Shown here: one piece after another, positions 3,190 through 37,238 of the stretch
Position numbering within the stretch: position 1 is the stretch's first letter
Layout of the letters: every line of letters starts with the position of its first letter
Source of the DNA: Euzebyella marina
GTDB taxonomy: Bacteria; Bacteroidota; Bacteroidia; Flavobacteriales; Flavobacteriaceae
Direction of reading: 5' to 3'
Assembly: GCF_014855515.1 (NCBI RefSeq)
Contig: NZ_JACYFK010000001.1
Location: 1-64,000 of the forward strand
Length of the DNA: 64,000 nt
Translations under genes and position numbers: made by a program
The notes under the pieces: generated by a model
The model's input: only the letters and a program-made list of their open reading frames with translations
Told to the model about the DNA's origin: nothing
Databases searched by the model: none

Positions 3190-3219
3190 TGTTAACCTTC
3201 AGGGTTTATTGTTCATTAA
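3190..3219 (+). promoter_or_regulatory. Candidate ECF promoter, variant copy (OmpA-like operon)
   Basis: TGTTAACCT at 3190-3198 is followed 16 bases later by ATTAA at 3215-3219. The four other copies near the sigma gene use a 15-base spacer, so this is the least certain member. It lies 80 bases before the OmpA-like gene at 3300, compared with 22-24 bases for the other + strand copies. Confidence 0.45.
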
Positions 3220-3299
3220 CGTAGTGAGAGCAAATAAATGGCGAAGAGCTTATTTATCAATCCTCCGTATAATTCGCACAACACTAAAATCATGCAACA

Positions 3300-4640
3300 A
3301 TGAAACGTTCAAAACATTACCTACCCCCCATCTTGTTCATCGGTCTATTTCTACTATCAGTACCCGATGCCAACGGCCAACTTCTCAAAAAATTAGGAAA
3401 AGCCGCCGAAAGAGCTGCAGAGAGAACAGTTGAAAGAAGAGTTGAAAAAGAAACTTCAGAGAAAACAGACCAGGCACTTGACAGTATTTTCGAACCTGGC
3501 AGTTCAAGAAAAGAAAAACAAGTTTCGAAACGACCGGAGTCAACCGGTGACGATCCTACAATTAAAAATGACCCTTCATCTGGCCAGAAAAGTACTTCGC
3601 CCAATAGTTCTGACCCCTCAGATACATCTATAAACGTATACAGTAAGTTTGATTTTGTACCGGGGGACGAAACCTTATTTCTAGATGATTTTTCAAGAGA
3701 TTTTGTGGGCGACTTTCCATCTAAATGGAATACGAACGGAAGTGCCGAATTAGTAACCATCGACGGTTTTGATGAAAAGTGGATGAAAATAATGCCCGGT
3801 AGCAATAGCTACTTCATTCCGAACCTTACCGATTTACCGGAAGAATTTACCTTGGAATTCGACGTCATCACCCAAGGCTTAGACAATAAAACGTCTTCAC
3901 AGGCTTACCTCACTATTCTCGCCAGTGACAACAACTCTTTCGAAAAAGGGGCCAACTGGGCATCTGTCTCCTATTCTTTCTGCCAATATATCGACCAAGG
4001 GGTTCTTGTTGAAAACCATATCAATGGCAAAAGGGTCATTAGAAACGAGGTGCAGGCCGACCTGCGAAAAACGGTAGTGAACCAACACCATATCTCGATT
4101 GCTGTTAACAAACAAAGGTTTCGCTTTTGGATCGACGAACAAAAATATATCGATGTACCCAGACTACTGCCCGAAACCCCTGGCATGACAGCATTAAAAT
4201 TCAATCTTAGAGGTACCGATTCAAACAAAGAGGCAATCTACATGAGTAATTTTAAAATAGCGAAAGGTGGTGTAGACCTAAGAAGAAAATTGCTGGCGGA
4301 TGGTAAAATATCGACTAACGGAATTCTTTTCGATAGTGGATCGGCCAATATACAACCCAGGTCAATGGGCGTTATCAGGCAAATATACCAGGTGCTTGAA
4401 CAGGATAGTTCTCTAAAACTAAAAATAGTCGGGCATACCGATAGCGATGGTGATGCTAACAATAATAAGAACCTGTCGGAAAAAAGGGCTGCTGCCGTTA
4501 AAAATGCACTGACCTCTGTTTATAACGTTTCTGCTGACCGATTGACTACAGAAGGTAAGGGGGAAGATGAACCTTTAGAAGATAACGGAACCCCAGAAGG
4601 AAAGGCCCAGAACAGAAGGGTCGAATTTATTAGAATTTAA
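3300..4640 (+). CDS. Exported OmpA-family protein
   Basis: The 446-residue protein has a signal peptide (about residues 1-26, ending ANGQ). A charged, Glu/Arg/Lys-rich and Ser/Pro-rich linker runs to about residue 110, and a middle domain follows that may be a lectin-like jelly roll. The C-terminal OmpA/MotB-type peptidoglycan-binding domain covers residues 337-446, with the typical ILFDSGSA, VGHTDSDG and NRRVEF motifs. It should therefore link the outer membrane or periplasm to the cell wall. It is followed at 29-base spacing by an exported DUF3108-like protein and a lipoprotein, probably one transcript. The upstream TGTTAACCT site suggests control by the nearby ECF sigma factor (inference). 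Confidence 0.85.
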   Translation: MKRSKHYLPPILFIGLFLLSVPDANGQLLKKLGKAAERAAERTVERRVEKETSEKTDQALDSIFEPGSSRKEKQVSKRPESTGDDPTIKNDPSSGQKSTSPNSSDPSDTSINVYSKFDFVPGDETLFLDDFSRDFVGDFPSKWNTNGSAELVTIDGFDEKWMKIMPGSNSYFIPNLTDLPEEFTLEFDVITQGLDNKTSSQAYLTILASDNNSFEKGANWASVSYSFCQYIDQGVLVENHINGKRVIRNEVQADLRKTVVNQHHISIAVNKQRFRFWIDEQKYIDVPRLLPETPGMTALKFNLRGTDSNKEAIYMSNFKIAKGGVDLRRKLLADGKISTNGILFDSGSANIQPRSMGVIRQIYQVLEQDSSLKLKIVGHTDSDGDANNNKNLSEKRAAAVKNALTSVYNVSADRLTTEGKGEDEPLEDNGTPEGKAQNRRVEFIRI

Positions 4641-4669
4641 AAGGAACTTTACTAAAGAATAAAAACATC

Positions 4670-5362
4670 ATGAACAACAAAATAATCGCACTTTTCGTAC
4701 TTGTACTCATTACTAACCTCGCATGGTCACAGAGCAATTGCAGCAAGTACTACCCTATGAATGAGGGAACCTCTTTTCAATATACCATTTATGACAAAAA
4801 GGGAAAAGAGGACGGCAACACCGATTATAAAATAGTAGATATTACCAATGATGGTGGAACGACACATGCCACGATGCAAATGCGGCTTACCGACAAAAAA
4901 GGAAAAGTAGTTTTTGAATCTGACTATAAATTCACCTGTACCGGTAATGGCGTTAAAATCGATTACAACTCTATTATGCCCCAAAAGATGCTCGAGCAAT
5001 TTGGTGATATGGAATATGAAATTACGGGAACGGATATAGAAGTTCCGAATAATTTAGAAGTAGGTCAAGAGTTGAACGATGCCAATGTTGATATGGCCAT
5101 TAGCATGGCCGGCATGAATATGGAAGTAAGCGTACAAATGATCAATAGAAAGGTAGAGAAAAAAGAGAGTGTAAGCACCCCAGCAGGAAACTACGACTGC
5201 TATGTCATCTATACCGATACCGAATCAAAAACCATGGGTGCTAGCCAAACCTTTCCTAGCCGTCTATGGTTAGCCGAAGGTGTAGGCATGATCAAGCAAG
5301 AGACCTATAAGAAAAATGGAGATTTGATGAGTAGCATGCAATTGACCCAATACAACAAGTAA
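4670..5362 (+). CDS. Exported TapB/DUF3108-like protein
   Basis: The 230-residue protein has a signal peptide (residues 1-20, cleavage after AWS) followed by a single beta-rich domain. The opening YYPMNEGTSFQYTIYDKKGK and the later VSTPAGNYDCYVI and RLWLAEGVGMIKQE segments are typical of Bacteroidota proteins annotated as TapB or DUF3108-like. Proteins of this fold sit in the periplasm or outer membrane, and their biochemical role is not established. It lies between the OmpA-like gene (29-base gap) and a lipoprotein gene (29-base gap), so the three are probably co-transcribed. The family name is given from memory of the pattern. Confidence 0.7.
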   Translation: MNNKIIALFVLVLITNLAWSQSNCSKYYPMNEGTSFQYTIYDKKGKEDGNTDYKIVDITNDGGTTHATMQMRLTDKKGKVVFESDYKFTCTGNGVKIDYNSIMPQKMLEQFGDMEYEITGTDIEVPNNLEVGQELNDANVDMAISMAGMNMEVSVQMINRKVEKKESVSTPAGNYDCYVIYTDTESKTMGASQTFPSRLWLAEGVGMIKQETYKKNGDLMSSMQLTQYNK

Positions 5363-5391
5363 ATAATTTACCAACATTAAAATTTAATAAT

Positions 5392-6012
5392 ATGAAAACG
5401 AAAATCACATTGGCGTTAGTGATAGCCATTGCCATGACATCTTGTTCGAAACTATGGTACTGGAACGATGACGATAAAAAAGATGAAATTAAACTTACAG
5501 AATCGAATTATGTATTCGAAGGTGATTTATACAAATATGCACTTGAAATCAGAATTGATTCATTGGAAGACCGTGCAGCATATCTAAAAGAAATCATAGG
5601 CAACAATCAGGGAACCCCTGATATTGAAAAAGATTTTGAAGAAACAACTGCTAATCTAGCAAATACAGCCGAAATTGCTGAAAGCATTGTAGTGTTTGAA
5701 GACCTAGCAGATAGGCTAGGCAGAAGAAACCCTATAGGCCCAAGACCTCCTAGACCAGGTGTTATTCCTATTAATCTTGAGTATATAATTGTGTACAATT
5801 TAGAAGATGTCAATCTTCAAATAAATGATGAAAACGGGGCAGAATTGGCCCAATCAGAAGGTATTCTTTATGAGATAGTTGGCACAAACAATATGTTAAT
5901 GTATAAAAAAGTAAATATTACCAATGCGATTTCAGAAGGAGCTGTAATTAAGATTAAAAGATTAAACAAACTTAATCAAGCGGACAGCTATTCTATACAG
6001 GCCTTAAAATAG
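5392..6012 (+). CDS. Lipoprotein of unknown function
   Basis: The 206-residue protein has a lipoprotein signal peptide with the lipobox Cys at residue 18 (MTSC). An Asp/Lys-rich spacer follows, then a predicted coiled-coil or helical stretch (about residues 50-105) and a short Pro-Arg-rich hinge (GPRPPRPG, around residue 120). The C-terminal part is beta-rich. I do not recognise a family. It is the third gene of the OmpA-like cluster and is followed by a strong terminator. Its place in that cluster suggests an envelope role under the same control. Confidence 0.7.
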   Translation: MKTKITLALVIAIAMTSCSKLWYWNDDDKKDEIKLTESNYVFEGDLYKYALEIRIDSLEDRAAYLKEIIGNNQGTPDIEKDFEETTANLANTAEIAESIVVFEDLADRLGRRNPIGPRPPRPGVIPINLEYIIVYNLEDVNLQINDENGAELAQSEGILYEIVGTNNMLMYKKVNITNAISEGAVIKIKRLNKLNQADSYSIQALK

Positions 6013-6047
6013 GCTTATAAAACATGCTCAGCATATTTTAGTAAATT

Positions 6048-6084
6048 GGCCTTTGAGATTTAATCCACTCTCAAAGGCCTTTTT
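6048..6084 (+). terminator. Intrinsic terminator abutting the CHAT gene start
   Basis: A perfect 11-bp stem (GGCCTTTGAGA with TCTCAAAGGCC) with a 10-base loop is followed by TTTTT. The last T is directly followed by the ATG of the next gene at 6085, so the hairpin sits where a leader and ribosome site would normally be. It may end the upstream operon or act as an attenuator of read-through. Confidence 0.85.
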
Positions 6085-8880
6085 ATGGTAAGAACTTTTG
6101 TTTTATTAAGTAGCCTCCTTTTACCAATATTCCTGATTGGTCAAAATGATAGCTATGAGAACCGCATGGATTATTTATTCAACAAAGGTTATGAGCATTT
6201 ATATTCCAACAAAGATTCTGCGCTTTTTTACTTTGAAAAGATTCACACCCTCGCTGTTTCAGAAGAAGATTGGTCATCTGTTGCCGATGCCTTAACCGGG
6301 AAAAACTGGTTGGCAGAATACGAAAACGACTTACGGGCACTTAACAAAAACCTCGCTGTAATAGACTCTTTATTTACTACTCAAACGAGCTATTTTGAAA
6401 GTTTGCCAGAATATATCCTTTATAAAAATGATTTATTCTATCACAAAGGCCAGTATTATTTTCTAATCAATGATTTTGAAAAAGCCCGCATCGAATTCAA
6501 TAAGATTCTGGAAATCAACATTGAGCCTGATAATTCTGAATATTCTGGCGAAAAGTTAAAATTCATCTCAACAGCCTATAGTTATCTGGCAAAAATGTAT
6601 GCCGACGAGGGAAAGCTTAACCTAGCTACCAACTATTATGAACGTAACATCCGGTTTTTGAAGCATAATCTTTCCGATGACAAAATCTCCCTTTATGAAA
6701 ACTATGACTTACTGGCCGAAGTACTTAAAAGAAAAAAGCTATACAAAGAAGCTAACGCTTACCTCTTAAAAGACTTGGACTACGTTCTTCAACATCAGGA
6801 AGAATTTGCAATCCCGAAAATTCTGAACATTGTTCAAAACCATACGCAATTGGCACAAATAGATAGTGCGGAAATCTATTTGAACATGGCTAAAAACCTT
6901 TTAAAGCAAAACTCTCCTTCTCTCTCGAGTTATTATCAAGTAAGTGCAGAGACACATCAACACAAAAACGAATACGAGAAAGCCTTAAACGATTATGAAA
7001 AGGCCCTTCAATATTCAGAAGAGAAATGGGAACGAGACAAAAATTGGGAAACTGCTCATATTTTAAATAAGATAGGGCTATTGCACAGTCGTTTTAAGCA
7101 AAGCAGAAAAGCAATTGAGGCCTACGATCTAGCTCTTGAAGAAATTTTGGACCGACCCACGGAAATCAACAAGCATAAAATCATACAAATCTTAAATAAC
7201 AAATCATCAGCTCTGAATAAAATGGGCAACCAAAGTGCCGCGACCCTGAAAAGTGTTGAAATGGGTATGGCTTTGCTAGATAGCCTAAAGCCCACTTTTA
7301 AAACCAATTCAGACAAGTTGTTATTGATTGAAGAAGTATTTCCGTTATTTGAATCTGGCCTAAAAGCCACTTTTTCATTGTTTAATGAAACAAAAAATGA
7401 CATTTATATAGAACGGGCTTTCCAGTATTTTGAGAAAAGTAAATCCGTGTTATTAATGGAGACACTATTGGCGTCTAAAGCCACTGAGTTTGCCCAAATA
7501 CCTCCCGAATTACTCAATGACGAAAAACAGCTGAAGGCAGAAATTACACAAGTAGAAAAACAATTGAACCTAGGCCAAGAAAATTCTACACTTCAGAATC
7601 GATTATTCACCCTGAAAAACAATCACAGGAACCTGATATCAAAGATTGAAAAAGATTATCCAAAATATTACGACTTAAAATATAATTCTGAAGTAATTGA
7701 ATTACCGGAAGTACAGCAATTATTAGCTACAAAAGAAGCCCTTATTAGCTATTTTTATGGAGATGAATCTATCTACGCATTGTTCTTTACGAGGGATACG
7801 AAATTTTTTGGTCGTATACCGATTACCGAAGATTTATTTGAAGAGATTCTTGAATTTAAAAATCTTATAGCCAATTCTAAGTCAGAACTGAATAAAGTTC
7901 AACAGCTGGCAAAATCACTTCACCGACAAATTTTAAAACCAATCCTTTCTAAGAATGAAGAATTGGAAAAACTAATTATCATACCCGATGGGCCTCTAAA
8001 CTACATACCTTTTGGGGCACTGATCGATGAATCTTCAAACTCCTATTTAATAGAAGATGTTTCTATTAGTTATATCAACTCCGCAACTTTACTTCATCAG
8101 CTCAGTGACGATTCTATAGAAAACTCAAAGCTTTTGGCCTTTGCCCCTACTTTTGATGGTAATTCGAAGGTAGATGTAGAGCGCTCAGAATTACTTCCCC
8201 TACCACATAATAAAACAGAGGTCAACAAAATTCTTCAATCTTTTGAAGGAAAAAGGTTTGTTGATCAAGAGGCCACCCTTCAACATTTCAAAGAAGAATT
8301 GAATGACTACGGGCTCTTACATCTTGCTACACACGCCGTTTTTGATGATGCTTTTCCTGAATATTCCTATTTGGCCTTTACCCAGTCTGGTGACGAAATA
8401 AACAACAATCTTCTTTTTACAGCAGATTTATACAACCTGAGAACCAAAGCTAACCTGATTACATTGAGCGCTTGTGAAACCAATATCGGACCTCTGAAAA
8501 AGGGCGAAGGATTTCTCGGCCTCTCACGCGCCTTTTTCTATGGAGGTGCCCAAAGTATTAGTAGCACACTCTGGAAGATAAACGATGCGGCATCATCTGA
8601 CATTATGAACCAATTCTACAAAGAACTATCACTGGGAAAAAGTAAAGACGAAGCCCTTAGACAAGCCAAACTACATTTTTTGCAAAATAATGCAGACAAT
8701 GCAAGGGCGCACCCATATTATTGGGCCGGATACATTATTACTGGCAATACGACACCCTTAAAAACATCCGTTATCGAACCATGGGTCTGGTATGCTGGCA
8801 TTGGCCTTTTATTGCTGTTACTTATCGTATACTTATACTTTAAACGTTTTAAAGCAACCTCAATTCAAGGCATCAATTAG
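6085..8880 (+). CDS. Membrane-anchored TPR-CHAT (caspase-like) protein
   Basis: The 931-residue protein has an N-terminal signal peptide (about residues 1-19), a long TPR-type helical region (about 25-470), a coiled linker, and a C-terminal CHAT domain (about 570-890). The CHAT catalytic pair is visible: H750 in HLATHA and C797 in SACET. A single membrane helix follows at about 900-918, then a basic tail. This topology puts the TPR and CHAT parts in the periplasm. CHAT domains are caspase/separase-clan cysteine proteases. The ATG at 6085 is forced by an in-frame TAA at 6061. Its 3' end overlaps the anti-sigma-like gene tail-to-tail by 21 bases. The substrate is unknown; the adjacent membrane anti-sigma-like protein is an attractive candidate (inference). 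Confidence 0.9.
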   Translation: MVRTFVLLSSLLLPIFLIGQNDSYENRMDYLFNKGYEHLYSNKDSALFYFEKIHTLAVSEEDWSSVADALTGKNWLAEYENDLRALNKNLAVIDSLFTTQTSYFESLPEYILYKNDLFYHKGQYYFLINDFEKARIEFNKILEINIEPDNSEYSGEKLKFISTAYSYLAKMYADEGKLNLATNYYERNIRFLKHNLSDDKISLYENYDLLAEVLKRKKLYKEANAYLLKDLDYVLQHQEEFAIPKILNIVQNHTQLAQIDSAEIYLNMAKNLLKQNSPSLSSYYQVSAETHQHKNEYEKALNDYEKALQYSEEKWERDKNWETAHILNKIGLLHSRFKQSRKAIEAYDLALEEILDRPTEINKHKIIQILNNKSSALNKMGNQSAATLKSVEMGMALLDSLKPTFKTNSDKLLLIEEVFPLFESGLKATFSLFNETKNDIYIERAFQYFEKSKSVLLMETLLASKATEFAQIPPELLNDEKQLKAEITQVEKQLNLGQENSTLQNRLFTLKNNHRNLISKIEKDYPKYYDLKYNSEVIELPEVQQLLATKEALISYFYGDESIYALFFTRDTKFFGRIPITEDLFEEILEFKNLIANSKSELNKVQQLAKSLHRQILKPILSKNEELEKLIIIPDGPLNYIPFGALIDESSNSYLIEDVSISYINSATLLHQLSDDSIENSKLLAFAPTFDGNSKVDVERSELLPLPHNKTEVNKILQSFEGKRFVDQEATLQHFKEELNDYGLLHLATHAVFDDAFPEYSYLAFTQSGDEINNNLLFTADLYNLRTKANLITLSACETNIGPLKKGEGFLGLSRAFFYGGAQSISSTLWKINDAASSDIMNQFYKELSLGKSKDEALRQAKLHFLQNNADNARAHPYYWAGYIITGNTTPLKTSVIEPWVWYAGIGLLLLLLIVYLYFKRFKATSIQGIN

Positions 8881-9606
8881 TTCTTGTGCCCTCTCTTTTT
8901 TATAATCGTACATATCGACAAGAATTTCTAACCATTGTAGGGCTTTTTGTTTATCCTTAGTTTTCAAGGCAACCATGGCAAGATACCAATATGCTTCAGC
9001 TTTAAGTTGCGTTTCGCTTTCGGCGGCCTTTTGAAGAAACTCTTGGGCCTTGTCATACTGTTTTAAATTCAAATAAGACATACCCATATAAAAATCGATA
9101 TAGTCGTTTCTATCGGCCAAAGGTATTTTTTCAAAATTCGTTATGGCCTCTGCATAATTATCTAACTCGTATTGTGAGAAGGCATTTCTTTCTATACTCT
9201 CAACCGATTCTCCCCTGGATATTTCAAAGACCGTATTAGGGTAATTCTGAAAATTATCTTCATAAAGTTGGTTGTAATTCGGTCCGGAAAAATTGTTGTA
9301 ACCTAGATAACCCAGCCCTATTAAAAGAGCAATAGAGGCGGCTACCATCCATTTTCTATAGACCGAAAACCGGCTTTCAGGTTCTAGCTGCACTACTTTC
9401 TCATCTTTGATCTCACTTTCAAAAAGCTGTAATTTCTCTTTTAGCTCCGTTGACTTCTCCTCCTGAATCACCTTTTGTAAATTCTTTTCAAAATCGTACT
9501 GCTCTTTGAATTCCCGGTCATTTTTCAAAAGCTCGTCAAAAGCTTCCTGCTCTTCTGACGTCAATTGATTTGAAAAATATTGATAAAGCAAAGTTTCTTT
9601 ATCCAT
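8860..9606 (-). CDS. Anti-sigma-like membrane TPR protein
   Basis: I choose the ATG at 9606 (248 residues), because the open frame upstream overlaps the sigma gene and the family normally starts with a MDKETLL-like stretch. The N-terminal cytoplasmic part (1-85) has the look of Bacteroidota anti-sigma factors (QLTSEEQEAFDELLKND). One membrane helix lies at about 87-103, and the C-terminal half has TPR-like repeats predicted to be periplasmic. With this start it begins 2 bases after the sigma stop codon, which indicates translational coupling. The likely role is to hold the sigma factor at the membrane until a periplasmic signal arrives. It is not a FecR-type anti-sigma, and binding is inferred from context. 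Confidence 0.8.
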   Translation of the reverse strand: MDKETLLYQYFSNQLTSEEQEAFDELLKNDREFKEQYDFEKNLQKVIQEEKSTELKEKLQLFESEIKDEKVVQLEPESRFSVYRKWMVAASIALLIGLGYLGYNNFSGPNYNQLYEDNFQNYPNTVFEISRGESVESIERNAFSQYELDNYAEAITNFEKIPLADRNDYIDFYMGMSYLNLKQYDKAQEFLQKAAESETQLKAEAYWYLAMVALKTKDKQKALQWLEILVDMYDYKKERAQELIDALN

Positions 9607-9608
9607 GG

Positions 9609-10178
9609 CTAGTAGGTATTTGATTTGATTTTTTCCTTCAATGTTTTCATACATCGCGATTTGGCAGCCTTCACTACATTTTCACTATTGTAGTTTTCAG
9701 CTTCCATTATTTCTTGGATGGTTAAGCCACGATAATAGAATAGGGTCAGTAATTGCTGGCATTTTTCGCCCAAACTTTTAAAATGTTGCTGTAAAAGTCG
9801 CTGTTCATGGCTTAGGTCGGGAGCTTCCAATTCAAAGGAACTTATCTGCTCATCAGTATCACCAACTCTGCTCAGGTCGAACTTTTCTGAAACCGATTTC
9901 TTATTTTTTCTCATTCGATCAAAGATTAAATGTTTTCCGATAGAAATCAGATAAGTAGAAATACTACTACTCAAATGCTCCAATTTACCGGACATCACAT
10001 TATTATAGAAGATGATGTAAGCATCTTGATAAAAATCTATTATATCATCTTCAGGCAACTGATAGCGTCGGGCAAAGTTTACAAACTTGAATTTGTTGTC
10101 TTCGTAGATTTTCTTAAGGTCTTTATCCGCACCTTTTCGTAATTGTTCTAAAGAAATCTCTACCAGTTCATTTTCCAT
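9609..10178 (-). CDS. ECF RNA polymerase sigma factor
   Basis: The 189-residue protein has sigma-70 region 2 (about residues 20-95, with DIIDFYQDAYIIFYNNV and the YLISIGKHLIFDRMRK segment) and region 4 (about 130-185, with an HTH around LTIQEIMEAENYNSENVV). It directs RNA polymerase to alternative promoters. It is co-transcribed with the anti-sigma-like gene. A TGTTAACCT-N15-ATTAA site lies immediately upstream on the same strand, ending at the base before the ATG, which suggests autoregulation. In-frame TAA precedes the ATG, so no longer protein is possible. If the site is a classical promoter the transcript would be leaderless or start inside the frame. Confidence 0.92.
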   Translation of the reverse strand: MENELVEISLEQLRKGADKDLKKIYEDNKFKFVNFARRYQLPEDDIIDFYQDAYIIFYNNVMSGKLEHLSSSISTYLISIGKHLIFDRMRKNKKSVSEKFDLSRVGDTDEQISSFELEAPDLSHEQRLLQQHFKSLGEKCQQLLTLFYYRGLTIQEIMEAENYNSENVVKAAKSRCMKTLKEKIKSNTY

Positions 10179-10207
10179 TTAATGTATATCTAATGAGAAG
10201 GTTAACA
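10179..10207 (-). promoter_or_regulatory. Candidate ECF promoter (sigma operon)
   Basis: Read on the minus strand: TGTTAACCT (10207-10199), 15 bases, ATTAA (10183-10179), then the sigma-factor ATG at 10178. The box and spacing equal those before 10383, 10563 and 12409. An imperfect hairpin GCTATTT/AAATAGC at 10209-10227 lies next to it. Confidence 0.6.
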
Positions 10208-10330
10208 GGCTATTTAGCTAAAATAGCATTTTTTGGGTGGCATTGTATACTTGTTTAAGCCTAATGGCGGCAACCACGGGGCTTTATAGTAAACTAACTA
10301 CAATCTAATCTCTCAATTTTTTTATCAAAA

Positions 10331-10359
10331 TGTTAACCTCCTGTACTATTCCACATAAA
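10331..10359 (+). promoter_or_regulatory. Candidate ECF promoter (small membrane peptide)
   Basis: TGTTAACCT at 10331-10339, a 15-base spacer, then ATAAA at 10355-10359. The ATG of the 31-codon frame at 10383 follows 23 bases later, the same distance as in the copies at 10510 and 12358. Confidence 0.55.
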
Positions 10360-10382
10360 TGAGGGAACCCTAAAAATTGAAA

Positions 10383-10478
10383 ATGATGGAAACATATGAA
10401 CGGTTGGAGATTATTAAGTGGTTGCTGATTGTTGCTTTAGTTGTAGTTCTTACTTTGTCTCATGAAATTCTTCTTTAA
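10383..10478 (+). CDS. Small single-pass membrane peptide
   Basis: This is a 31-codon frame too short for ordinary gene finding. It opens with two successive ATGs, has a short charged N-terminus (ETYERLEIIK), and then a continuous hydrophobic stretch of about 16 residues (WLLIVALVVVLTLSHE). That is the form of a one-helix inner-membrane peptide. I list it because a candidate ECF promoter lies 23 bases upstream, in the same position as for the two following lipoprotein genes. No homologue is known to me. It could also be just a transcribed leader. Confidence 0.4.
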   Translation: MMETYERLEIIKWLLIVALVVVLTLSHEILL

Positions 10479-10509
10479 ATCTTAGGGTTTCTATAAAAAA
10501 CCATCTAGG

Positions 10510-10538
10510 TGTTAACCTTTTTATTTTTCTACCATTAA
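10510..10538 (+). promoter_or_regulatory. Candidate ECF promoter (propeller lipoprotein)
   Basis: TGTTAACCT at 10510-10518, a 15-base spacer ending CTACC, then ATTAA at 10534-10538. The gene starts 24 bases downstream at 10563. Confidence 0.6.
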
Positions 10539-10562
10539 GTGCTGTAACAATAAAATAGCATT

Positions 10563-11654
10563 ATGAAAAATTCAGTTTTTTTTATCGCGATTATCCTTTT
10601 TGCTTCTACGATGTTTACAAATTGTAAAAAGGATGATGATTCACCACAACCGGCAATTGAAAATACGCCTCCGCAAGAAACGCCTGAAGAGACCCCTGAA
10701 GAAGAACTTCTCAAAATTGATGGCACTTGGGCCGTTAGTTCAGCAGACTTTTACGAATACCAAAACAGCAGCTACTTCATCATCAACCCAGACAATACAT
10801 TAACTATACTTGACGAAGACGAAATGGGCTTTCGGGATCTAAACAATGCCAATTACACCCATGATGAAGAAAACAGTCAAATTACGATCAATTTTGGTTT
10901 TGGCTCTTCCTTGGCCAATTACACTTTGACTGAGGATGAATTAGTATTAAGTTTTCCTGACGGTACGGTAACCTTAAACAAAAATGAAACGATTGCTGAT
11001 AACCAATGGTTAGAAGAACTCACCATTTTGGTGGAAGGCGATGCCCCATGGACAGATAGTGTTGATATTGCCTGGAACGGTAGCCAAATTTTGGTCGGCA
11101 ATGGATATGAAGCTGATAATATTGGTGTAGTAAACCCTGAAACCTTTGCTTTGGATGGCACGATTACCACCACAAGAAGTGCCTTTGCCGTAGAGATCGA
11201 GAAATTTGATGACCCCAGTAAATATCTTTTTCAAAGTAGTAACGGCTCAGCCAAATTCTATATCTACCAAGAATCCGACAACACCTACCTAGAGGAGTCT
11301 TTAGACATGGGGGCTTGGATTTATGGCTTAGCTTCTATTGATGAAAGGAGAATATGGGCCGCTAGCGGAAATGAAAGATCTCTTTACCTCTATAACTACA
11401 ATACCCATACCATTGAACAGACCATTGAACTAGATACAAGACCTAACGGACTTGACTATCAAGACGGTCATCTTTATGTATGCGCCAATAACAAACTGTT
11501 CAAATGTGATGTTAGCGATGGGTTACAGGTGGTCAATTCATATAGCATACCAAATGTTCAGATATATGGTGTAGCCTACGACGGTTCTAATTTTTGGGTC
11601 TATGGCGAACAAAATAATGAGGGGAAACTCATAAAAATTGACCTAACCATTTAG
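10563..11654 (+). CDS. Lipoprotein with beta-propeller-like C-terminal half
   Basis: The 363-residue protein has a lipoprotein signal peptide with the lipobox Cys at 21 (FTNC). An Asp/Pro/Glu-rich spacer follows (about 24-48), then a lipocalin- or META-like beta domain opening IDGTWAVSS (about 50-140). The C-terminal region has repeated blade-like strands (for example GLDYQDGHLYVCANNKLFK and GVAYDGSNFWVYGE) that resemble a partial beta-propeller. I assign no enzymatic role. A candidate ECF promoter lies 24 bases before the ATG. The next lipoprotein gene begins 86 bases downstream on the same strand and may be read from the same promoter. Confidence 0.75.
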   Translation: MKNSVFFIAIILFASTMFTNCKKDDDSPQPAIENTPPQETPEETPEEELLKIDGTWAVSSADFYEYQNSSYFIINPDNTLTILDEDEMGFRDLNNANYTHDEENSQITINFGFGSSLANYTLTEDELVLSFPDGTVTLNKNETIADNQWLEELTILVEGDAPWTDSVDIAWNGSQILVGNGYEADNIGVVNPETFALDGTITTTRSAFAVEIEKFDDPSKYLFQSSNGSAKFYIYQESDNTYLEESLDMGAWIYGLASIDERRIWAASGNERSLYLYNYNTHTIEQTIELDTRPNGLDYQDGHLYVCANNKLFKCDVSDGLQVVNSYSIPNVQIYGVAYDGSNFWVYGEQNNEGKLIKIDLTI

Positions 11655-11740
11655 AAAAGAAAGCCCTTTTCTTAAAAGGGTATTAAGAGTCTACTTTCAT
11701 TGAAATATAATACCTAGTATTAATTTAATCAGAAGAACTA

Positions 11741-12271
11741 ATGAAAACAATTCAAATTCTTTTGGCTTTGTCGTTAATGATGATAGCCCAGGCCTGTGAA
11801 ACAGAAATACCTGAAACCGATGTTGACCCGCCCACGTTTTCCATTAAAATAACTGGAGACGGATTTAATGAAACTTTTGACCAAGACACCGATTTTGATA
11901 GCTTTGAATTGAACTTACGAGAAGGTTCGGAATATACCTTTCTTATTTCTGGTGGTGACACCGGAGGGCTTAAAAGATTTGAGGTGTATTTTGCCCCAGA
12001 TCATATTCAAATGAACCCCAATCTGAGTGGAAATTGGGTACACACTAGCCTAAGTACACTTACCGATATGCTTTACTGGACCGGTAATGCGTCATCACCA
12101 TTAACAGGCACCCTGCTAAACGGAACCTTTGTTGCAGAGGGAGATTCCGTATCCTCCCCCATAACTTTTTATTTAACCGATTATGGAGGTAGTGAAGGTA
12201 GCTCCAATGTAACAAGTGCTTCTTTAAATGTTTACTCTGGTGACCATGCCACCGAGATTAAATACTTCTAA
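11741..12271 (+). CDS. Lipoprotein of unknown function
   Basis: The 176-residue protein has a lipobox Cys at 19 (AQAC) after a hydrophobic signal. The mature part is acidic and beta-rich (Thr, Gly, Asp) and probably folds as one immunoglobulin-like or jelly-roll domain. I recognise no family. It lies between two genes with candidate ECF promoters but has no TGTTAACCT site of its own. It may be served by read-through from the gene at 10563, since the hairpin CCCTTTT/AAAAGGG between them (about 11664-11680) lacks a T-tract. A real terminator follows it. Confidence 0.65.
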   Translation: MKTIQILLALSLMMIAQACETEIPETDVDPPTFSIKITGDGFNETFDQDTDFDSFELNLREGSEYTFLISGGDTGGLKRFEVYFAPDHIQMNPNLSGNWVHTSLSTLTDMLYWTGNASSPLTGTLLNGTFVAEGDSVSSPITFYLTDYGGSEGSSNVTSASLNVYSGDHATEIKYF

Positions 12272-12322
12272 CAGTTACATTCTTTAAATAAATTAGAATT
12301 ACACGCACTTGAAGAGTTTTTT

Positions 12323-12348
12323 AACCTCAGTAACTACTGAGGTTTTTT
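12323..12348 (+). terminator. Intrinsic terminator
   Basis: A 9-bp stem AACCTCAGT/ACTGAGGTT with a 4-base loop and a T-run ends the transcript of the lipoprotein gene that stops at 12271 and isolates it from the next promoter. Confidence 0.85.
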
Positions 12349-12357
12349 ATGACTTAA

Positions 12358-12386
12358 TGTTAACCTTCTATCTCCCCTAACATTAA
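12358..12386 (+). promoter_or_regulatory. Candidate ECF promoter (collagen-like lipoprotein)
   Basis: TGTTAACCT at 12358-12366, a 15-base spacer ending CTAAC, then ATTAA at 12382-12386. The collagen-like gene starts 22 bases later at 12409. It lies just after a terminator, so this gene needs its own promoter. Confidence 0.6.
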
Positions 12387-34693: not shown

Positions 34694-35026
34694 ATGGGAC
34701 TAGCTAAAACAGAAATATTCACTGACGAACAAAATCAAATAGCCTTATTCGCCAAAGTATTTGGGCATCCTGCTCGTGTTGCCATATTGCAACAACTTTT
34801 TAAACTGGACACCTGCATTTGTGGTGACCTAGTAGAAGAAATTGGCTTGGCTCAACCCACGATTTCCCAACATTTGAAAGAACTTAAAAATTTAGGTTTG
34901 ATCAAGGGTAATGTTGAAGGTACAAGCGTGTGCTATTGTATCGACAAACAAAACTGGTCTGAAATGAAGAACACAATGTTACAATTTTTGAATCAAGATA
35001 TAACCTTACAATCAGACTGCTGTTAA
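34694..35026 (+). CDS. arsR: ArsR-family arsenic-responsive repressor
   Basis: The 110-residue winged-helix repressor has the recognition helix in LAQPTISQHLKELKNLGLI. Possible arsenite-binding Cys pairs are C41/C43 (TCICGDLV, the place of the classical ELCVCDL motif), a second CYC pair in the wing, and the terminal C109-C110. It should bind the two operators around it and control the operon. It is the first gene of a four-gene cluster: arsR, DUF6428, arsenate-reductase-like phosphatase and ACR3 pump. Confidence 0.9.
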   Translation: MGLAKTEIFTDEQNQIALFAKVFGHPARVAILQQLFKLDTCICGDLVEEIGLAQPTISQHLKELKNLGLIKGNVEGTSVCYCIDKQNWSEMKNTMLQFLNQDITLQSDCC

Positions 35027-35044
35027 AAAAATTTGAATCATTTA

Positions 35045-35060
35045 ATCGTAAAATCGCAAT
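35045..35060. promoter_or_regulatory. ArsR operator 2
   Basis: ATCGTAAAATCGCAAT, 13 bases before the DUF6428 gene. It differs from operator 1 in two positions, and the flanks (CATTTA before, ATA/ATAAA-rich after) are also alike. The copy between the first and second gene suggests a second ArsR-controlled start. Confidence 0.65.
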
Positions 35061-35073
35061 AAACAAATAAAAT

Positions 35074-35541
35074 ATGAAGCTCTCAGAAATAAAGAAGCAC
35101 TTAAAAAGCCTTGACCAAATAGCTTTTCTATTGCCTAACGGAGAATTGGTACCCAGTCATTTTCACGTAACAGAGGTGGGCAAAATCACTAAACACTTTA
35201 TTGATTGTGGAGGAACGGTAAGAAATGAGGTAGTCGTAAATTTTCAATTATGGAATGCCGATGATTATAATCACCGCTTGCACCCAGAGAAACTCACTCA
35301 TATTATTGAACTCTCAGAAGAAAAATTGGGCATTGGTGACCTTGAAATCGAAGTAGAATACCAAGGCCGAACTATAGAAAAATTCGCTCTCGAATTTGAT
35401 GGTAGTAATTTTCTACTAACATCAAAACAAACCGACTGTTTGGCTAAAGAAAACTGTGGAATACCTGAGAAGAAACCCAAGTTAAACTTTTCAGAGCTAC
35501 AAACCGGTAATTCTTGCACCCCAGGTGGCGGCTGTTGCTAA
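35074..35541 (+). CDS. DUF6428 family protein of ars operon
   Basis: The 155-residue cytoplasmic protein is found beside ars genes in Bacteroidota. It has a compact N-terminal domain (IKKHLKSLDQIAFLLPNGELVPSHFHVTEVG) with a conserved His/Cys pattern (SHFHVTEVG, HFIDCGG). The last part has four to five Cys (DCLAKENCG, SCTPGGGCC) that may bind arsenite or a metal. Its reaction is unknown. It has its own upstream operator copy and is 23 bases before the phosphatase-type reductase gene. Confidence 0.82.
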   Translation: MKLSEIKKHLKSLDQIAFLLPNGELVPSHFHVTEVGKITKHFIDCGGTVRNEVVVNFQLWNADDYNHRLHPEKLTHIIELSEEKLGIGDLEIEVEYQGRTIEKFALEFDGSNFLLTSKQTDCLAKENCGIPEKKPKLNFSELQTGNSCTPGGGCC

Positions 35542-35564
35542 CACCATAACCGAAAATTAGATTT

Positions 35565-36182
35565 ATGTCGTTACTAAAAACCCTTTCCGAGCAAGTCTCT
35601 ACGCTGAAAAACCTAACTATTTCAGAAGACAGAAAACTGATACTGCAACCTTTGATTGACTATATTCAAGGGCAGGTAGAACAGAAAAAACCAGTTCGCA
35701 TCAATTTTATATGCACCCATAATTCAAGAAGAAGCCATCTTTCTCAAATATGGATGCAGACCTTAGCATATCATTTTGGTTTGAACAATATTATCTGCTA
35801 TTCCGGAGGAACTGAAAGTACCGCAGTTTTTCCGATGGTCATTAAGACCTTGATCAATGCTGGTTTTGAAATTGAAACGATTTCAAAAACCGAAAATCCT
35901 ATTTACAGCATAAAGTATGCCGACAACGAACACCCAATCATTGGTTTTTCTAAAAGACTGGACAGTGATTTTAATCCGAAAGATTCTTTCGCGGCCGTCA
36001 TGACCTGTTCACAAGCTGATGAGGGTTGCCCTTTTGTTGCCGGTGCCGAAAAACGAATACCCATCACTTTTGAAGATCCGAAGGCATTTGATAATTCCCC
36101 ACTTCAAGCAGAGAAATACAAAGAACGTAGCGAGCAGATAGCTTCTGAAATGTATTATGTGCTTTCTCAAATACAGCAGTAA
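35565..36182 (+). CDS. arsC: Low-molecular-weight phosphatase-type arsenate reductase
   Basis: The 205-residue protein has the LMW protein-tyrosine-phosphatase fold with the P-loop C50-THNSR-R56 (CX5R) in ICTHNSRRSHLSQ. A second Cys (C141-C149 area, MTCSQADEGCPF) sits where thioredoxin-coupled ArsC enzymes keep the resolving Cys. In this context it should reduce arsenate to arsenite for export. It sits between the DUF6428 gene (23 bases) and the ACR3 pump, whose ATG follows its stop codon with no gap. A general phosphatase role cannot be excluded. Confidence 0.88.
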   Translation: MSLLKTLSEQVSTLKNLTISEDRKLILQPLIDYIQGQVEQKKPVRINFICTHNSRRSHLSQIWMQTLAYHFGLNNIICYSGGTESTAVFPMVIKTLINAGFEIETISKTENPIYSIKYADNEHPIIGFSKRLDSDFNPKDSFAAVMTCSQADEGCPFVAGAEKRIPITFEDPKAFDNSPLQAEKYKERSEQIASEMYYVLSQIQQ

Positions 36183-37238
36183 ATGGCAAGTAAAAAACTA
36201 GGCTTTCTTGATCGGAACCTCACCTTATGGATCTTTATTGCTATGGCCCTAGGTGTAGGAGTTGGGCACGGATTTCCAAACTTTCCGGATTTTGTAAACG
36301 CTTTCAATAAAGGTTCGACCAATATTCCAATTGCTATCGGTCTCATCTTAATGATGTATCCTCCTTTGGCAAAAGTGAATTATACGCTATTACCAAAAGT
36401 CTTTAGAAACATCAAAATACTTTCGATATCCCTCATCCTTAATTGGGTGGTAGGCCGTATTCTAATGTTCGTTCTGGCATTGACCTTTCTTTCCGATTAC
36501 CCTGAATATATGGTGGGTCTTATCCTTATCGGTTTGGCAAGATGTATAGCCATGGTATTGGTATGGAACGATTTGGCGGAAGGTAGTAGCGAATACGGTG
36601 CTGGCTTAGTGGCTCTCAACAGTATTTTTCAAGTATTCGCGTATAGTTTTTATGCCTATATTTTTATTACTGTACTTCCACCCTATTTTGGTTTTGATGG
36701 TGCCATTGTTGACATCTCGATTGCCACTATAGCCGAAAGTGTGGTGATTTATCTGGGTATACCGTTTGTATTGGGCATTGCTTCTAGGTTCTTTTTCATT
36801 AGATTAAAAGGAGAAGATTGGTATTCAAATAAATTCATTCCCGCAATTTCCCCCATTACCCTTTATGCATTACTGTTTACCATAGTTATCATGTTTTCTT
36901 TAAAAGGCGAACTGATTGTTGAAATTCCTATGGATGTCGTTATCATTGCCATACCCTTGGTCATCTATTTCATTCTAATGTTTATCATCGGCTTTTTTGT
37001 CACTAAGGCATCTGGCGCTAATTACGATAAGACCACATCAGTAGCCTTTACAGCCGCCGGAAACAATTTTGAATTAGCGATTGCCGTTGCTATCGCTGTT
37101 TTCGGCCTCAATTCGGGCCAAGCATTTACCGGGGTTATCGGCCCCTTAGTAGAGGTACCGGCTCTTATTCTTTTGGTCAAGGTTGCCTTTTGGCTTAGAA
37201 GGAGGTATTTTCAAAAAAATCTTACCGAAAGCTATTAA
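36183..37238 (+). CDS. arsB: ACR3-type arsenite efflux transporter
   Basis: The 351-residue protein has ten predicted membrane helices. It is the ACR3 family, not ArsB of the E. coli type, by the helix motif [20 protein letters not shown] with the essential Cys and by [16 protein letters not shown] near the end. It exports arsenite out of the cell. It starts immediately after the reductase stop codon (zero spacing). The symbol arsB is often used in annotation for ACR3 genes. Confidence 0.93.

Follow-up and report, generated by a model that had tools for sequence, protein, structure and literature searches.

A candidate extracytoplasmic function sigma regulon of Euzebyella marina and its relatives, with the predicted promoter site of the sigma gene abutting its start codon

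The locus and its repeated element

The first 64,000 nucleotides of contig NZ_JACYFK010000001.1 of the flavobacterium Euzebyella marina (assembly GCF_014855515.1; hereinafter, the window) contain a gene for a sigma factor of the extracytoplasmic function (ECF) type followed by that for a predicted membrane anti-sigma factor, flanked by genes for exported proteins on both sides and punctuated by copies of a short bipartite sequence element (Table 1). A preliminary description of this region, made from the letters of the window, had listed five copies of the 9-mer TGTTAACCT, all intergenic, each followed by an AT(T/A)AA box and pointing toward the next gene, and had interpreted them as the promoters of a regulon controlled by the sigma factor. 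Here we trace this element through the E. marina genome, 200 genomes of the family Flavobacteriaceae and 80 named loci picked by similarity to the sigma factor, with reversed sequence, Markov simulation and shuffles as the controls for site counts.

The count holds up: TGTTAACCT occurs in the window exactly five times, at 3190, 10331, 10510 and 12358 on the plus strand and at 10207 on the minus strand, against a shuffle expectation of 0.6 copies, and none of the 100 shuffles got as high as five. All five copies are intergenic and aimed at the next gene, and all five are followed by ATWAA with a spacer of 15 bases (16 at 3190), where 0.03 such boxes would be expected. For the genes that start at 10383, 10563 and 12409, the ATG lies 22-24 bases past the box, as had been reported, and the sigma gene differs from the other four sites in that its ATG follows the box immediately, with 0 bases in between.

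A pattern search over the 4,672,668 bases of the genome yielded seven exact matches to TGTTAACCT-N15/16-ATWAA compared to none in the reversed control; five of the seven fall within 9.2 kb (Poisson chance ~4e-12), and the sites are intergenic and located upstream of exported genes. The preliminary description would have been refuted by sites no more frequent before genes than expected, which is not what we observe. One of the matches outside the window (C2:919589) lies 71 bp upstream of a second collagen-like lipoprotein gene; another (C5:77455) overlaps the start of a 113-aa open reading frame (ORF) and is probably due to chance. Loose matching is useless in this genome because a scan allowing two mismatches gave 50 matches versus 72 in the control. 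Separately, a sequence with a single -35 mismatch, TGTTAACG...ATAAA (C1:1492128-1492156, minus strand; L060), is found 55 bp upstream of the gene for an exported protein of 203 aa and likely marks another target.

Table 1. Features of the sigma locus (window coordinates, except where a locus label is given)
Feature	Coordinates	Strand	Basis or remark
Predicted sigma-dependent promoter site, spacer 16, of the OmpA...TPR-CHAT operon	3190..3219	+	motif
Exported OmpA-domain protein, 446 aa, operon gene 1	3300..4640	+	PF00691 2e-22
DUF3108-like exported protein, operon gene 2	4670..5362	+	PF21347 1e-63
Lipoprotein-like protein, 206 aa, operon gene 3	5392..6012	+	ORF; homologues in 28 loci
TPR-CHAT protease-like protein, 931 aa, operon gene 4	6085..8880	+	PF12770 6e-64, TPR
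Putative membrane anti-sigma factor	8860..9606	-	class I-like domain 1-67, membrane helix ~81-105, TPR domain 111-247
ECF-type sigma factor, 189 aa	9609..10178	-	TIGR02937 1.5e-16, PF04542
Predicted own promoter site of the sigma gene	10179..10207	-	last base of -10 box immediately precedes ATG at 10178
Housekeeping-type (TAnnTTTG-like) box TATTTTAG upstream of the own site	10218..10225	-	
Predicted divergent promoter site	10331..10359	+	motif
Conserved membrane micropeptide, 31 aa, MMETYERLEIIKWLLIVALVVVLTLSHEILL	10383..10478	+	13 loci, pooled pN/pS 0.40
Predicted promoter site of the propeller-like lipoprotein	10510..10538	+	motif
Propeller-like lipoprotein, 363 aa	10563..11654	+	weak DUF6923; homologues in 22 loci
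Lipoprotein-like protein, 176 aa	11741..12271	+	ORF
Predicted promoter site of the collagen-like lipoprotein	12358..12386	+	motif
Collagen-like (Gly-X-X) lipoprotein, 215 aa	12409..13056	+	PF01391 1.7e-10
Sigma-1 type box near sigma-2	L077:5787; L078:7510; L079:12301; L081:5307	-; -; +; -	

Conservation of the element in relatives

Homologues of the sigma factor are present in 34 of the 200 family genomes, and every close homologue has the motif just upstream. The exact motif is represented by 81 copies in the 15 genomes that encode a close sigma compared to 38 copies in the other 185, approximately the level of the reversed control. With the broader pattern TGTTAACC-N16/17-ATWAA, the 80 loci together with the window contain 316 sites, only three of them deep inside an ORF, versus one site in the reversed and one in the Markov-simulated sequence. 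Chance repetition in AT-rich intergenic DNA can be discarded: the counts in the window, the genome and the relatives refute it, nothing speaks in its favor, and its probability is negligible. The sites in the relatives refine the consensus to TGTTAACCTTT-N12/13-YATWAA, with base 24 nearly always C or T.

Outside the sigma genes themselves, the ATG of the target is mostly located 45-70 bp from the motif start, and reading of the sequences of four apparent exceptions revealed, in each, a more suitable ATG within the usual distance. By our own simple scripts for gene calls and for a signal-like N-terminus, 155 of the 157 targets are signal-like compared to 673 of the 1174 other ORFs (p ~1e-31), and a lipobox is found in 106 and 261 of these, respectively. 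The commonest kind of target in the relatives is the collagen-like lipoprotein: the biggest cluster includes 78 proteins from 48 loci, 60 of which contain collagen-like Gly-X-X runs. OmpA-type proteins account for 30 further targets, and a site of this kind precedes OmpA homologues in 30 loci. Altogether, a regulon of exported proteins governed by this promoter code appears well supported by the comparative evidence. The preliminary description had presented the code as one not familiar from the literature; in the open-access literature, we came across no account of the motif or of a sigma group of this kind in Flavobacteriaceae.

Probable recognition of the element by the sigma factor

The sigma factor qualifies for the ECF group (group IV), which is defined by the presence of sigma2 and sigma4 only, a length of ~190 aa and the sigma70-ECF profile, with 60.5 bits for TIGR02937 against a cut-off of 42.9 and a score above the cut-off for PF04542. 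It cannot be assigned to any named ECF subfamily because the subfamily models, such as Sig70_bacteroi1, score below their cut-offs. Does this sigma read the box next to which it is encoded? The element could, after all, be the operator of a separate DNA-binding regulator, with the sigma gene as a mere neighbor and target, and the GTTAAC sequence is palindromic like many operators. The architecture speaks against this possibility, given the two boxes, the fixed 15/16 spacer, the single direction and the fixed distance to the ATG, and so does the covariation of the site with the recognition helix of the sigma. Among 100 distinct sigma sequences (duplicated genomes and probable reverse-strand sites removed), base 5 of the -35 box varies with residue 166 of this helix: the base is A in 83, where the residue is Glu except for three cases (Tyr, Ala and Gln), and T in 17, where the residue is Lys except for one Thr; the pairings A with Lys and T with Glu do not occur. 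In a tree built without these columns, there are six base switches and five residue switches, two of the base switches being forced by well-supported branches. Covariation without crossover implies that the ECF-type sigma very probably reads this box directly.

The paralogous sigma-2 encoded in the same genome (C1:765419; ~41% identical) points in the same direction, having its own version of the box, TGTTTACC...ACTAA, which is found where the sigma-2 gene starts and also at a neighbor; in the five genomes searched, exact matches to this version are confined to sigma-2 loci. With conservation, co-occurrence with the sigma and covariation all in agreement, the bipartite promoter with an AAC-type -35 that the preliminary description had attributed to this sigma is supported, and a separate regulator appears very improbable.

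Several observations concern sigma-2 in its own right. Across its loci (C1:755500-775400, L077, as well as L078, L079, L080 and L081), the promoter version takes the form TGTT(T/G)ACC...A(C/T)(T/C)AA, and these loci show the same overlap with the start codon. Near sigma-2, in four genomes, there is a gene for an exported 159-164 aa protein that has a box of the sigma-1 type 38-47 bp before the ATG, by which the two sigmas might be connected.

A predicted promoter site at the start codon of the sigma gene

In 74 of the 80 loci, the start codon of the sigma gene (48 ATG, 26 GTG) lies 28-31 bp from the first T of the site, where the -10 box ends; in the paralogue clade, this distance is 28-29 bp. 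Polymerases of the sigma70 family begin transcription 6-8 bases past the -10 box and, with the site abutting the start codon, the transcript should therefore begin inside the ORF, at approximately base 36 counted from the first T, within codon 2 or 3, which in the window corresponds to a predicted start at ~10172. This geometry is observed; the start point would follow from it under the usual behavior of the polymerase. Compatible with such a start, an A is present at +7 after the box in 86-100% of the sigma genes irrespective of the codon phase, and the targets have their A peak (76%) at that same +7 position. A few Aquimarina homologues of the sigma (L186, L188, L191 and L192) lack a standard site at the start and may use another box.

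The preliminary description had viewed the regulon as self-controlled. The tie between the sigma and the site stands; simple self-activation fares worse, considering that the own site, in each clade where it is present, runs right up to the start codon. Ordinary positive autoregulation would require that the own site drive full-length sigma via a leaderless start or a non-standard inner start codon. Self-activation is common among ECF sigmas, as is well established (see also PMC10028731), and a start codon straight after the box resembles a leaderless design. Nevertheless, we consider this scenario quite unlikely: an ATG 0 bases past the -10 box precedes the expected start point, 28 of the 74 sigma genes contain no ATG, GTG or TTG in codons 2-25, and the other targets keep a normal leader. 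In addition, 66 of the 74 sigma genes have no in-frame upstream start.

How, then, would the sigma itself be produced? A TAnnTTTG-like box is found within 26 bp upstream of the own site in 75 of the 80 sigma genes compared to 21 of the 217 targets, with 8.5 of the 80 sigma upstream regions expected to contain one in shuffles; upstream of this box, we found no convincing distinct -33 TTTG. The two elements overlap within the polymerase footprint, which raises the possibility of pure occlusion, whereby the holoenzyme at the own site would merely block the housekeeping promoter, without a useful transcript and without any increase of the anti-sigma. Untranslated RNA, furthermore, is generally prone to Rho termination, and a precedent for occlusion exists in HrpL of Pseudomonas syringae (PMC5263251). 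The own site, however, retains a full -35, a full -10 and an A at the expected start, which is more than blocking needs, so that pure occlusion appears unlikely, albeit less so than self-activation. We could identify no paper describing the start-codon overlap in the open-access literature.

The anti-sigma factor and the TPR-CHAT operon

The start of the anti-sigma was set at the ATG at 9606 (the listed ORF extends to 9654). Its gene directly follows that of the sigma in all 80 loci, starting between -8 and +10 bases from the sigma stop codon; two features of class I anti-sigmas, location beside the sigma and membrane anchoring, are found in 80 of 80 loci, with the helix predicted at residues 81-105. 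In Bacteroidetes, a class I anti-sigma was reported to be encoded nearby for only 6% of the ECFs (PMC7406223). The AlphaFold2 model (mean predicted local distance difference test score, pLDDT, 86.6) consists of an N-terminal helical domain, the membrane helix and TPRs. Because a fold search with the full-length protein gave TPR-type matches only, the N-terminal part was modelled alone, and 8 of the 10 best, if weak, Foldseek matches of these 78 residues in the PDB are MucA, RsiW, RseA and RslA.

The gene for the TPR-CHAT protease-like protein, which contains an N-terminal signal and a C-terminal membrane helix, is convergent to the anti-sigma gene. A homologue is present in 79 of the 80 loci, the CHAT His and Cys motifs are kept in 65 of the 69 proteins, and a site upstream of the CHAT operon was detected in 54 of the 71 loci.

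Among the remaining genes, the 31-aa micropeptide was likely overlooked by annotation. It belongs to a family of 27-35 aa (M..TYEKLEIIK-LLI-AL...) encoded on the side divergent from the sigma gene, in most cases right after a site, in the window and in L114, L115, L116, L117, L118, L120, L122, L123, L127, L128, L136 and L146. The gene for the 176-aa lipoprotein-like protein is probably co-transcribed; its relatives elsewhere have their own site. Apart from the sigma locus, the window includes, by ORF reading, an arsenic-resistance-like cluster (34694-37238, plus strand) that consists of an ArsR-like regulator, an arsenate reductase-like protein and an ACR3-like transporter.

A proposed model of the regulon

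The scenario that seems to accommodate these observations most readily is as follows. The sigma would be held by the membrane anti-sigma, with the TPRs across the membrane from the sigma and, upon release, would read TGTTAACCTTT-N12/13-YATWAA and activate a limited set of genes for exported proteins, namely, the collagen-like and propeller lipoproteins, the membrane micropeptide and the OmpA...TPR-CHAT operon. The sigma itself would be expressed from the housekeeping-type promoter just upstream, whereas the RNA from the own site would begin ~6 bases into the sigma ORF and thus lack the start codon and retain the anti-sigma gene. We put the probability that the regulon exists and that no full-length sigma comes from the own site at about 0.75. 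Under this scenario, active sigma would block fresh synthesis of sigma and may raise the anti-sigma, hence a negative rather than positive feedback, a conclusion toward which we lean with slightly better than even confidence. The gene content suggests, more tentatively, that the TPR-CHAT protease acts on or cleaves the TPR anti-sigma to release the sigma. The conjunction of an own promoter that yields anti-sigma in place of sigma with a regulon-encoded TPR-CHAT protease that cleaves the anti-sigma is, as a whole, somewhat more doubtful still. Envelope stress is a plausible signal, given that the targets are exported and the anti-sigma is predicted to sit in the membrane.

Several points weigh against this scenario. 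All the evidence comes from comparison of sequences, and the loci are kin to one another and were selected for resemblance to the sigma. The phylogenetic sign test of the covariation cannot reach significance with two supported switches (six in the best tree). The pattern site is absent before 6 of the 80 sigma genes, two of which show the same geometry with AATAA, and for 17 of the 71 CHAT operons no site was found. The Foldseek matches of the anti-sigma have E values of 1.8-8.2 and probabilities of 0.15-0.63. The predicted start point is based on the geometry of ECF promoters in general, together with a modest peak of A, and early codons are A-rich in any case. Finally, Rho could stop transcription of the untranslated sigma ORF short of the anti-sigma gene, in which case only occlusion would remain.

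Comparison with known systems

The SigW-RsiW, AlgU-MucA and sigmaE-RseA pairs share with the present system a small sigma, exported targets and, encoded beside the sigma, a membrane anti-sigma whose N-terminal domain is helical (in our case, in the model); peculiar to the system described here are the TPR sensor domain, the constant TPR-CHAT operon, the YATWAA at -10 and the contact between the own site and the start codon. The AAC-containing -35 presumably resembles the TGAAAC type of B. subtilis SigW. In the same family, SM6, the ECF promoter class predicted in Flavobacterium psychrophilum on the basis of mapped starts, carries CGT in the -10 box (PMC9723704), as opposed to ATWAA here.

The HrpL sigma of P. 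syringae is under negative autogenous control, with occlusion exerted from the divergent promoter of hrpJ (PMC5263251). The likeness, which here is proposed from geometry, is that the holoenzyme of an ECF sigma would repress its own gene, served by a promoter of another type; the difference is that, in our case, the sigma gene has a complete site of its own that overlaps its start codon, with a second, divergent site beside it. As for the protease, the CRISPR-associated TPR-CHAT protein Csx29 frees the ECF-like CASP-sigma by cutting the inhibitor Csx30 (PMC10028731), and the gene content of our loci suggests a similar arrangement, in which an inhibitor would link a TPR-CHAT protease to an ECF-like sigma. 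Here, in contrast, the anti-sigma combines TPRs with a membrane helix and the CHAT protein has a signal peptide; no CRISPR effector was found among the profile-named or ORF-list genes, although no dedicated CRISPR search was made. ECF54 sigmas likewise have CHAT-domain neighbors and are described without an anti-sigma (PMC8999054), a description that sets them apart from the present group, with its anti-sigma in 80 of 80 loci.

Implications

Together, these observations supply a promoter code for a sigma factor that is spread over many genera of Flavobacteriaceae, a group in which little is known of alternative promoters, along with a readable specificity switch, Glu or Lys in the protein going with A or T in the DNA. 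They also hint that TPR-CHAT proteases take part in envelope signalling in settings other than CRISPR. What is new here is the position of the sigma's own site at the start codon, which suggests a built-in brake and, in functional terms, a way in which negative feedback may be wired into sigma/anti-sigma operons.

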